Shown here piece after piece: positions 1,766 through 32,904 of a stretch of DNA of 32,904 nucleotides. A program made the translations under genes and the position numbers. This stretch comes from Nitrososphaerota archaeon (GTDB lineage Archaea; Thermoproteota; Nitrososphaeria; Nitrososphaerales; Gagatemarchaeaceae), in the NCBI GenBank assembly GCA_027887005.1, contig JAPCJI010000013.1, positions 1 to 32,904 on the forward strand, given 5' to 3'. The notes beneath the pieces were generated by a model. It was not told where the DNA came from. It worked only from the letters and a program-made list of their open reading frames with translations, and searched no databases. The first letter of the stretch is position 1. Every line of letters starts with the position of its first letter.

Positions 1766-1876
1766 TTGTAGGCAGAGAGCGATTGAGACCAGAAGATTGG
1801 AGTTGGCATTTATCCGCGGGCCCAATCGATTAGGATGTTGTTGCCACTGGCCGAAAGGGTTAGGTTTTCGCCATTC

Positions 1877-1886
1877 TATTTATAAC
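1877..1886 (+). promoter_or_regulatory. TATA promoter of rpl7ae-rps28e
   Basis: TATTTATAAC is centred about 26 bp before a predicted transcription start near 1907. This gives a leader of about 16 nt with a GGGAG-like element before the ATG at 1923. It lies in the 157-bp gap after gltX. Confidence 0.65.
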
Positions 1887-1922
1887 GGGGTCTCGAAAGG
1901 CGGGTCTGGGAGATACGAGAAG

Positions 1923-2303
1923 ATGACCCCTAAGCCCTACTACGTCAAAGTTGAAACCCCGAAGGAAGTGGCCGAGGCCGCCTACGAGGTCCTGAGACAG
2001 GCGTCACGCAGTGGGAAGGTCCGCAAGGGGACCAACGAGACCACCAAGGCAATCGAGAGAGGGATGGCCAAACTCGTGGTGATCGCGGAAGACGTCACGC
2101 CCCCCGAAGTGGTCGCCCACCTGCCGATTCTTTGCGAGGAGCGGAAGATTCCGTTCGTCTTCGTCCCTTCGAAGGACCAGATCGGGCCAGCCATAGGCAT
2201 CGACGTGTCGACGGCCTCTGCCGCGGTCCTGGACGCGGGTGAAGGAGCCCAGATTCTGGAACAGGTAACCCAAGAGCTGGCGAGGCTGAAGAAGCCCGCA
2301 TGA
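1923..2303 (+). CDS. rpl7ae: Ribosomal protein L7Ae
   Basis: This 126-residue protein is L7Ae, a kink-turn RNA-binding protein. In archaea it serves in the large ribosomal subunit, in C/D and H/ACA RNPs and in RNase P. The RNA-contact signature is visible as [13 protein letters not shown] (residues about 38-50), followed by [10 protein letters not shown] and the conserved IPFVFVPSK strand. The frame is open upstream to 1797, but that part contains the promoter, so the ATG at 1923 (MTPKPYYVK) is chosen and gives the usual family length. Its TGA overlaps the ATG of rps28e (ATGA), so the two are translationally coupled. Confidence 0.95.
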
Positions 2304-30178: not shown

Positions 30179-31105
30179 ATGGAGTTCACCATCGCCCTGG
30201 AGTCGCCCTTCAGCCTCGACTTGACCCTCCAGAGCGGCCAGGTCTTCAGGTGGGAGAACAGAGGCGAATGGTGGTACGGAGTCGTCTCCGGCGGGGTCAT
30301 CAAGATGAAGCAGGAGGGCGATTCGCTGCGGTGTATCTCGGGTTCGGACCTGCTGAACGGCGCCTTCGTGAGGAGCTACTTCCGGCTGGACGACGAGCTC
30401 GAGCAGATCCTCGGTTCGGTGATGAAGGAAGACAGGATGACCCAGGCGGTCCAGAAGTTCTACGGGCTCCGCCTGATCAGGCAGGAGCGCTGGGAGTGCC
30501 TCGCGTCCTTCGTACTGGCTACGAATTCCAACATCCCAAGGATCAGGAAGATGGTGGAGGCCGTCTGCTCGAAGTATGGCGAGCCTCTTGTATTCGAGGG
30601 GATCCGCTACAGCTCGTTCCCGAAGCCCGAAGTGCTGGCCGCGGCAACCGTGGCCGAGCTCAGGGAGTGCGGGCTGGGGTACAGGGCGCCCTTCCTGAAA
30701 CACGTCGCCTCTTCCATCGACGAGGGTAAGGTCGACTTCAGCGAGCTGACCCTCCGCGACTACGAGGATGCGCGCAAGATCCTGCTGACCAAGCTCTTTG
30801 GAGAAAAACTCCTGCTTGGCGTGGGACCCAAGGTCGCGGATTGCGTCCTCCTCTATTCCTGCGAGAAGGACGAGGCATTTCCGATCGATGTATGGATAGC
30901 CCGGGAACTGGCGACTTCGTACCCGAACCTTCTCACCAAGGAACTAAAGAGAAAGCTAGGCCCCGAGCGCAAGTCAAAACTGGGGAGGGGGGACTACGAG
31001 CGGCTGTCCGCCTCGGTCCGTTCATACTTCGGAGAACACGCGGGCTACGCCCAGCAATACCTCTTCATGATGGCCAGGGCCGAAGGGGCTAGGAAGCCTT
31101 CTTAA
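30179..31105 (+). CDS. ogg: 8-oxoguanine DNA glycosylase, OGG1 type
   Basis: This 308-residue base-excision repair enzyme removes 8-oxoguanine from DNA and nicks the strand. The N-terminal OGG_N domain (about 1-100) contains the typical LTLQSGQVFRW. The helix-hairpin-helix GPD domain contains LLGVGPKVADC with catalytic Lys218, and FPIDVW with Asp237. The full-length two-domain form, as in human OGG1, is kept. A TATA-like CAATTAAC (30148-30155) puts initiation next to the ATG. Its 3' end overlaps the convergent L13e gene by 17 bp. With superoxide dismutase nearby it fits oxidative damage defence. Confidence 0.93.
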   Translation: MEFTIALESPFSLDLTLQSGQVFRWENRGEWWYGVVSGGVIKMKQEGDSLRCISGSDLLNGAFVRSYFRLDDELEQILGSVMKEDRMTQAVQKFYGLRLIRQERWECLASFVLATNSNIPRIRKMVEAVCSKYGEPLVFEGIRYSSFPKPEVLAAATVAELRECGLGYRAPFLKHVASSIDEGKVDFSELTLRDYEDARKILLTKLFGEKLLLGVGPKVADCVLLYSCEKDEAFPIDVWIARELATSYPNLLTKELKRKLGPERKSKLGRGDYERLSASVRSYFGEHAGYAQQYLFMMARAEGARKPS

Positions 31106-31571
31106 CTGGCGGGCTCTTCTTTCTGGCCCGCGACTTCATGGGCTGCTCGACCTTCTCGACAACTTCCTCCTCGACCTTCTTGACCTCCTTCTTCAACTTG
31201 GCCGCTTCTTTCTTCACAACCTTTTCTACCTTGATGACTTCCTCCTCGATCTTCCTGATCTCGCCCTCGGGTTTCCTGACCGTTCCCGCGTGCCCGGCCC
31301 AGTCCTTCACCGATGTCACGTTGGCCTCGAGGATGCTCCTCCTCCGGTAGTCCAACGGCAGGCCCCACTTCCTGGCCAATCTGAGCGGAATCCCGGAGCT
31401 GCTGACCTCCCCCTTTGAGAATCCCTTGGCTGCCCGCGTGACCAAGCCTTCACCATGCCGTGAGACGACGTTTGCCGTCGGGCTGTGCCCTGTCGGCTTG
31501 TTGGCTGCAGGTGAGGCGGGTTTCGGTTCCTTCATGGCGGCAGACTTCGTCTTCTTTGGCTTCTGGCTCAA
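31089..31571 (-). CDS. rpl13e: Ribosomal protein L13e with charged coiled-coil tail
   Basis: The protein has 160 residues, and its core (about 34-92) matches L13e: RAAKGFSKGEVSSSGIPLRL, ARKWGLPLDYRRRS and ANVTSVKDW. L13e is a large-subunit protein known from eukaryotes and TACK archaea. A basic N-terminal tail precedes the core. After it comes a long Lys/Glu region (about 100-145, with repeats such as VEKVVKKEAAKLKKEVKKVE), which should form a coiled coil or single helix, and a basic end. The TTG at 31571 coincides with the predicted transcription start. Confidence 0.85.
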   Translation of the reverse strand: MSQKPKKTKSAAMKEPKPASPAANKPTGHSPTANVVSRHGEGLVTRAAKGFSKGEVSSSGIPLRLARKWGLPLDYRRRSILEANVTSVKDWAGHAGTVRKPEGEIRKIEEEVIKVEKVVKKEAAKLKKEVKKVEEEVVEKVEQPMKSRARKKSPPVKKAS

Positions 31572-32332: not shown

Positions 32333-32449
32333 TCAAGCACGACCCCCCGCGTCCCCCTATAGGCGTTGCGAGAGAGGTTTTGGGAGGGCGTCAGACAGAC
32401 TCGGTTGGCTTACCTTAGGCCAGGAACCTTGGATGTCCCGCAGGTCGGA

Positions 32450-32470
32450 GACTCAGGACGCGCTCGTCCT
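32450..32470 (-). other. tRNA-Tyr intron 3, T loop at 59/60 (21 nt)
   Basis: This is a strict bulge-helix-bulge: outer helix GTCGG/CCGAC (the T stem itself), central helix CTCA (32476-32473) with TGAG (32455-32452), bulges AAA (32472-32470) and TCT (32451-32449), inner helix GGACG/CGTCC and loop AGCG. Splicing yields the 7-base T loop CTCAAAT. Confidence 0.93.
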
Positions 32471-32492
32471 TTTGAGCCGACGACACTCCGGT

Positions 32493-32537
32493 GACTGTGG
32501 CCTGAGTAGGCTGGACGGGTCAGCCGATAGCCGACCT
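32493..32537 (-). other. tRNA-Tyr intron 2, canonical 37/38 position (45 nt)
   Basis: This is a strict bulge-helix-bulge: outer helix TCCGG/CCGGA, central 4-bp helix CTGT (32543-32540) with ACAG (32498-32495), three-base bulges AGA (32539-32537) and TCA (32494-32492), and an inner helix starting GG/CC. Cutting after the second bulge base on each side leaves the 7-base loop CTGTAGA. Confidence 0.93.
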
Positions 32538-32552
32538 CTACAGCCGGAAGCT

Positions 32553-32570
32553 TTTGGCACCTTTTCAGGT
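32553..32570 (-). other. tRNA-Tyr intron 1, D arm (18 nt)
   Basis: Removing these 18 nt turns an imperfect D stem into GCTC/GAGC and restores a single base 26. A relaxed bulge-helix-bulge is possible: TGGT (32576-32573) with GCCA (32558-32555), a right bulge AAA (32554-32552) and a short inner ACC/GGT helix. The boundary is ambiguous by one base (G22/A23 or A23/G24), with the same mature product. Confidence 0.8.
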
Positions 32571-32612
32571 CTACCAGGCTGAGCTACTGCGGGACGGACG
32601 ACCGAGACCCGA

Positions 32613-32623
32613 AGATTTCTTAA
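32613..32623 (-). promoter_or_regulatory. TATA promoter of the tRNA-Tyr gene
   Basis: CTTAAGAAATC on the minus strand is centred about 26 bp before the first base of the mature tRNA (32593), the distance expected for an archaeal promoter. Confidence 0.6.
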
Positions 32624-32696
32624 GGGTTTTCCGTAGAGAAAGCAAACCCAAAATAGGCCATAGAGCCCCGCCGACACAGGAACGGTAGAGGTTCGT

Positions 32697-32904
32697 TTGA
32701 GTTTCTCTGACTACGTTGCACTCACCAAGCCGAAGATTATCCCCCTCCTTCTCATGGTTGCGCTGGGTTCGGCCGTGGTGGCAGCCAGGACGCTCCCACC
32801 GCTCGTTACTCTCTTCGGGGTGCTCGTCGGGGGTACCCTCGCCTCGGCCGGGGCGCTCACGCTCAACAGCTACTTGGAACAAGAGATCGACTCGAAGATG
32901 AAAA
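32697..32904 (+). CDS. ctaB: Heme O synthase-like UbiA prenyltransferase, N-terminal part
   Basis: The first 69 codons are visible and the gene runs off the window. The start SFSDYVALTKPKIIPLLLMV is typical of protoheme IX farnesyltransferase (CtaB), which farnesylates heme b to heme o for terminal oxidases in the membrane. A second helix leads to LNSYLEQEID, matching the N-x(3)-D/E-x(3)-D prenyl-diphosphate site, followed by SKMK. The TTG at 32697 is the only start after the in-frame TAG at 32661; GAGG at 32688-32691 is its ribosome-binding site. Other UbiA members (for example geranylgeranylglyceryl phosphate geranylgeranyltransferase) cannot be fully excluded from this part. Confidence 0.85.
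   Translation, partial: MSFSDYVALTKPKIIPLLLMVALGSAVVAARTLPPLVTLFGVLVGGTLASAGALTLNSYLEQEIDSKMK

Follow-up and report, generated by a model that had tools for sequence, protein, structure and literature searches.

A three-intron tRNA-Tyr gene in a Nitrososphaerales archaeon, with a conserved intron that may fold back on its own tRNA

Standard annotation would leave the genome of this Nitrososphaerales archaeon apparently without a tRNA-Tyr. Does the genome carry such a gene in a form that the usual programs cannot read, and if so, why are the sequences that hide it kept? The locus in question lies in the window, the whole stretch of 32,904 nucleotides that was analyzed. An earlier note had claimed that a tRNA-Tyr with anticodon GUA emerges here only after removal of 18, 45 and 21 nt, and the claim was borne out. 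Cutting out the three segments (84 of 158 nt) left the 74-nt sequence CCCGCAGTAGCTCAGCCTGGTAGAGCTTCCGGCTGTAGACCGGAGTGTCGTCGGCTCAAATCCGACCTGCGGGA, in which 21/21 cloverleaf pairs formed and the anticodon was GUA. The pair C1-G72 and the base A73, which the note had listed as identity elements, are both present. The gene reads on the minus strand, an orientation that the note had left unstated, with C1 at 32593 and A73 at 32436. Its parts are as follows.

32436-32593, minus strand: tRNA-Tyr(GUA) gene, 158 bp, four exons and three introns
32571-32593, minus strand: exon 1, positions 1-22 (5' strand of the acceptor stem, 5' strand of the D-stem, D-loop and G22), the same in the congener L057
32553-32570, minus strand: intron 1, 18 nt, in the D arm at 22/23; central helix UGGU/GCCA with 4/4 pairs, bulges AG^A and AA^A
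32538-32552, minus strand: exon 2, positions 23-37, with anticodon GUA at 32541-32539 and U35 at 32540
32493-32537, minus strand: intron 2, 45 nt, at the canonical site 37/38; central helix CUGU/ACAG, bulges AG^A and UC^A, inner helix GGU/GCC
32471-32492, minus strand: exon 3, positions 38-59
32450-32470, minus strand: intron 3, 21 nt, in the T loop at 59/60; central helix CUCA/UGAG, bulges AA^A and UC^U, inner helix GGACG/CGUCC
32436-32449, minus strand: exon 4, positions 60-73, CCA not encoded
32614-32624, minus strand: CTTAAGAAATC, 21-31 bases upstream of C1, likely TATA-box region

The intron borders were set by the bulge-helix-bulge (BHB) rule and scored by the pairs in the central, inner and outer helix. 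Two 3-nt bulges flanking a 4-bp helix were found at all three sites. Introns 2 and 3 form complete motifs (4/3/3 each), the T stem serving as the outer helix of intron 3. Intron 1 is relaxed (4/2/2), with its inner helix CCU/AGG offset by one and a hairpin ACCU-GAAA-AGGU abutting the central helix. One intron in the D arm and one in the T loop had been predicted, and both are there, with the third in the anticodon loop. A match to intron 3 on contig C20, considered as a sign of intron spread, was rejected as chance in a stretch without tRNA exons. The genome encodes two EndA paralogues, each carrying two EndA domains. The protein at C1:347223-347468 keeps the Tyr/His/Lys triad and is close to the Aeropyrum and Pyrobaculum subunits, and the one at C2:88640-88894 aligns to the Methanocaldococcus EndA and lacks the His. 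Two paralogues, one of them without the full triad, is the gene content expected of an (alpha-beta)2 enzyme. Thaumarchaeota are known to have EndA of this type, which has been linked to non-canonical introns (PMC4090602, PMC4033280). Most likely an (alpha-beta)2-type EndA formed from the two would cut each BHB, after which the exons would be ligated to the 74-nt tRNA.

The upstream element CTTAAGAAATC was kept in nearly all congeners amid differing flanks, and is therefore likely the TATA region from which the gene is presumably expressed. A 103-aa open frame (32571-32882, minus strand) that overlaps the gene and its promoter matched no Pfam family and is most likely spurious. When the spliced 74-mer was submitted to ARAGORN, it was called tRNA-Tyr(gta). 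The unspliced gene received no ARAGORN call, even with introns of 0-200 nt permitted in the anticodon loop, and was also missed in an ARAGORN run on the window. An Rfam search of the window did not see it either, even at E <= 10 around the gene; the expectation that standard scans could miss it was thus correct for both programs. Only 29 hits in the genome passed the Rfam tRNA cut-off. A search with the spliced sequence for any other tRNA-Tyr, a check proposed in the earlier note, found no second locus with Tyr exons in the 1.6-Mb draft assembly (96% complete). The closest match, C4:43076-43160, was rejected as a tRNA-Phe(GAA) with a D-arm intron, and 0/38 other tRNA-like matches, TGTA(A/G) sequences included, had GUA at the anticodon place. 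That tRNA-Phe(GAA) gene (minus strand, L030/L061) has the same TGTCG variable region as the tRNA-Tyr. Many further tRNA genes of the genome also look interrupted (L008, L015, L020-L028, L094-L100), among them a tRNA-Asn in the D-loop, several for Leu and Arg, and others.

The tRNA-Tyr gene was matched in 55/61 related genomes and so is not a chance assembly of tRNA-like pieces, and 176 loci (duplicates included) splice to near-identical cloverleafs. Within the genus, three introns were present in 21/27 genes, a tally that includes some near-identical species. The T-loop intron was missing from four genes, the D-arm intron from one, and both from one (L057). By locus, intron 1 is missing in L057 and L058, and intron 3 in L057, L038, L041, L044 and L045. 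The mature sequence is unchanged in the congeners without introns 1 and/or 3. L057 equals the predicted spliced 74-mer exactly apart from its 37/38 intron, and with this intron alone it scored 48.9 bits against the Rfam tRNA model. The earlier note had regarded three introns as unusual for a genome of this gene content; this view did not hold, and the three-intron state is ordinary for the lineage.

The intron at 37/38 behaved differently from its two neighbors. A pattern of tRNA-Tyr with a 37/38 intron matched in 328/400 genomes of the order. No intronless tRNA-Tyr was seen among 38 order genomes without a pattern match (draft assemblies or variant bases), and those of their genes that were readable had the 37/38 intron. 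Every tRNA-Tyr gene of the order that could be read carried it, as did seven further families sampled from the phylum; the named relatives that carry it are Thaumarchaeota/Nitrososphaerales assemblies. These comparisons indicate that introns 1 and 3 turn over readily and that intron 2 is conserved order-wide. In Nitrososphaera-type loci (L088, L090, L214-L243), tRNA-Tyr combines a T-loop intron of 28-32 nt, at 58/59, with a 37/38 intron of 55-67 nt whose splice helix stands apart from the ACA trinucleotide described below.

Some relatives have more introns still. At least seven, from several families, carry four BHB introns in tRNA-Tyr, and each of these genes gives a perfect cloverleaf once spliced, with BHB motifs present. 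The sites are 30/31, 37/38, 53/54 and 59/60 in L078, L181 and L353, and 22/23, 37/38, 53/54 and 59/60 in L348, L349 and L360, whose genomes are 0.8-1.0 Mb; the seventh, L297, belongs to another order of the phylum. L357 has four insertions too, with less clear borders in the T arm. A fourth insertion at 42/43 in L060 has a poor BHB, may be a variable-loop hairpin, and was left uncounted. The earlier note had described multiple introns, including non-canonical ones, as established for Thermoproteales. They are known there, and passages of the tRNAscan-SE 2.0 paper report multiple non-canonical introns for Thaumarchaeota as well, with up to three introns in an archaeal tRNA (PMC8450103). Fujishima and Kanai likewise give three as the maximum (PMC4033280), a number that the four-intron relatives exceed. 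Our search of the open-access literature found no published four-intron tRNA and no conserved archaeal tRNA-Tyr intron.

What distinguishes intron 2 is a conserved element, laid out here as follows.

32518-32536, minus strand: conserved hairpin of intron 2, GGUCGGCU-AUC-GGCUGACC
32509-32513, minus strand: CAGCC of intron 2, complementary to G30 G31 C32 U33 G34 (32545-32541)
32500-32504, minus strand: CAGGC of intron 2, complementary to D-loop G15 C16 C17 U17a G18
32496-32498, minus strand: ACA of intron 2, here overlapping the BHB central helix
32573-32579, minus strand: D-loop positions 15-20, partner of intron 2 in the predicted precursor fold

The hairpin is maintained, with a sequence that differs widely between families. 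The order CAGCY, then R(G/A)GC, then ACA was found in intron 2 of 118 distinct genes, and the element recurs in seven other families of the phylum with quite different hairpins. A further locus that fits the phylum pattern, L330, was rejected as a chance hit, with a different D-loop and no CAGCC. The bases paired by CAGCC, 30-34, lie directly 5' of U35, and the first base of CAGCC lies 15 nt 5' of ACA. Counted from the C of CAGC, ACA lay 15 nt away in 102/117 genes and 14 or 16 nt away in nine; the few longer distances are partly a search artefact, starting at an earlier CGGC. ACA itself was lost in only 1/118 genes (L150).

Both pairings were then followed across 149 genes. CAGCC formed at least 4/5 pairs with positions 30-34 in 134/149, and was weak in one genus (f25 g101). 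The exon side of this helix is invariant and changes are G-U only; because the exon side never varies, the case for the pairing rests on conservation. The helix between D-loop positions 15-19 and intron 2 had 6/6 pairs in 144/149 genes, and 0/149 in each of nine slid registers. It also covaries: D-loop C17 goes with an intron G and U17 with an A (12 genes), a U-G intermediate occurring once (L256), and position 20 is found as U20-A, C20-G or A20-U, with a single uncompensated case (L194). The C17/U17 switch is found both between families and within two of them (f9 and f13), and is therefore not one event. In a 52-sequence subset with a 2-nt spacer, which was picked for good pairing so that the 149-gene count is the unbiased one, 99.5% of cells in the D-loop helix were paired, and two pairs had changes on both sides. 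Such changes fell in 13 cells of this helix; after shuffling, the mean over the entire structure was 2.3. A hairpin inside the intron, GCCU/AGGC, was rejected as the cause of the conservation: 91% of its cells were paired against 99.5% for the D-loop helix, and it is mismatched in the U17 lineages.

From these pairings we propose that intron 2 is retained because it folds back on its own tRNA before splicing. CAGCC would pair with positions 30-34 and the next nucleotides with D-loop 15-20, ACA would follow 1-2 nt beyond the D-loop helix, and the fold would present U35, which is known to become pseudouridine in archaeal tRNA-Tyr, to a pseudouridine synthase. Conservation and covariation make a role of intron 2 in the precursor probable; that this role is formation of pseudouridine 35 seems to us about as likely as not. 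Two points count against such a modification role: this genome has TruD/Pus7, the enzyme that usually makes pseudouridine 35 in archaea, and intron 2 shows no evident K-turn. In two relatives in the phylum, L306 and L309, the D-loop of tRNA-Tyr is itself interrupted at 15/16, by introns of 54 and 21 nt; these split the D-loop that would pair with intron 2, and would therefore need earlier removal.

Archaeal H/ACA guides keep 14-16 nt between the ACA and the target pocket; pseudouridine 35 of pre-tRNA-Tyr is the product of an H/ACA RNP in Sulfolobus, and of Pus7/TruD elsewhere (PMC7991803, PMC6313347, PMC4652768). Intron 2 resembles such a guide in three respects. In most genes ACA lies 14-16 nt from the guide base beside the target U, CAGCC is complementary as a 3' guide to the bases 5' of that U, and a lower stem stands directly 5' of ACA, formed in cis with the D-loop. 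No upper stem with a K-turn or K-loop and no separate 5' guide were found in intron 2, the hairpin being judged by inspection; for this reason we do not file it as an H/ACA RNA, and it may only work like one. An H/ACA-like role is a tentative idea, in which our confidence is low. Under it, the 37/38 intron in Thermoproteota could, at a similarly modest likelihood, be an in-line pseudouridylation element that, ahead of splicing, guides Cbf5 to U35 in its own molecule. The tRNA's own D-loop would be the 5' strand of the lower stem, with ACA at 15 nt, and such guidance would account for an intron that is kept while its neighbors are gained and lost. Cbf5-family proteins were found in 11/11 genomes tested. 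Two further genes of the window (1797-2303 and 31089-31571) encode the guide-RNA-binding protein L7Ae and a protein with a match to ribosomal L13e. A box C/D guide reading was rejected, since the intron sequences have no box C (RUGAUGA), and the box D sequence CUGA falls within the hairpin stem.

A substantial competing possibility, to which we give somewhat less than an even chance, is that the 37/38 intron is kept only for a good BHB that assists EndA, the other conserved bases aiding folding with no link to modification. In most lineages (74/117 genes) ACA does lie within the BHB central helix, as ACAG; introns at the canonical site are generally old, and the D-loop pairing could serve folding alone. 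However, a BHB needs neither CAGCC, nor a fixed spacing, nor a D-loop complement, and introns 1 and 3 do without all of these. Moreover, in about 40 genes (f2, f8, f9, f16, f17 and one f1 genus) ACA is maintained although it stands apart from the splice helix, which sits a few nt downstream, and it still follows RGC by 1-3 nt. ACA therefore seems to be kept for its own sake and not only as part of the BHB.

The intron might instead make the precursor a substrate for the stand-alone enzyme TruD/Pus7, as in the intron-dependent pseudouridine 35 of eukaryotes, which we consider unlikely. The Pus7 motif is UNUAR. U33-G34-U35-A36-G37 fits it, U35-A36 would sit between two helices in the predicted fold, and TruD was found in the present genome and in 75/101 relatives. 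Against this, TruD/Pus7 gave no match in several genomes more than 90% complete (f13, f9, f17 and part of f14), the rest of the order being mostly positive, and f13 (4/4 checked genomes, 94-96% complete), f9 and f17 keep the full intron element. The fixed ACA spacing also plays no part in Pus7 recognition. The converse idea, absence of TruD as the simple reason for the element, was rejected as not general, because TruD is present here and in most relatives. Lastly, a decayed tRNA pseudogene whose insertions only resemble introns is scarcely credible, even though insertions make up more than half of the gene and standard scanners are blind to it, for there are no stem mismatches once it is spliced, all three sites have a BHB, the mature sequence is identical in many species, the upstream element is conserved, no other tRNA-Tyr was found in the genome, and the intron-poor orthologues refute the idea in practice. 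Within the explanation that we favor overall, from fold-back of the precursor to ligation of the exons, this Nitrososphaerales locus is almost certainly a functional tRNA-Tyr(GUA) gene.

Across the genus this gene is seen with one, two or three introns while its tRNA stays unchanged, a natural series well suited to the study of intron gain and loss. The fold-back of intron 2, on the D-loop and beside U35, would explain directly, and in a way open to testing, how a tRNA intron comes never to be lost. Should this fold-back direct pseudouridine 35, tRNA-Tyr would have, for pseudouridine, an equivalent of the box C/D intron found in tRNA-Trp. Two points should interest specialists: the relatives with four introns, and the conserved intron whose pairing partner is the D-loop.

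Among known systems, eukaryotic pre-tRNA-Tyr, with its intron-dependent pseudouridine 35 made by Pus7, likewise has a 37/38 intron that pairs with the anticodon region; no D-loop pairing or ACA is known there, and its conserved sequence is unrelated. The H/ACA sRNA of Sulfolobales and Aeropyrum (Muller et al. 2009, as cited in passages of PMC6313347 and PMC7991803) shares the target U35 and a guide 14-16 nt from ACA, but that guide acts in trans, whereas here a possible guide lies inside the intron and has no recognizable K-turn. In archaeal pre-tRNA-Trp the intron acts as a box C/D guide on the tRNA that contains it, and is similar in its 37/38 site, its self-pairing and a conservation beyond the needs of splicing; intron 2 of tRNA-Tyr differs in having no box C/D pair, and instead an ACA-type spacing and D-loop pairing whose function we infer. 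The non-canonical introns of Thaumarchaeota reported with tRNAscan-SE 2.0 (PMC8450103) belong to the same broad lineage and are of the BHB type; the passages concerned name neither this genus, nor a four-intron gene, nor the 37/38 element of tRNA-Tyr. Also comparable are the multi-intron tRNAs of Thermoproteales (Pyrobaculum, Thermofilum), with up to three BHB introns at canonical and non-canonical sites and an (alpha-beta)2 EndA. In contrast to these, the host here is one of the Nitrososphaerales, its relatives reach four introns, and, within a single genus, introns 1 and 3 vary in presence whereas intron 2 is always there.
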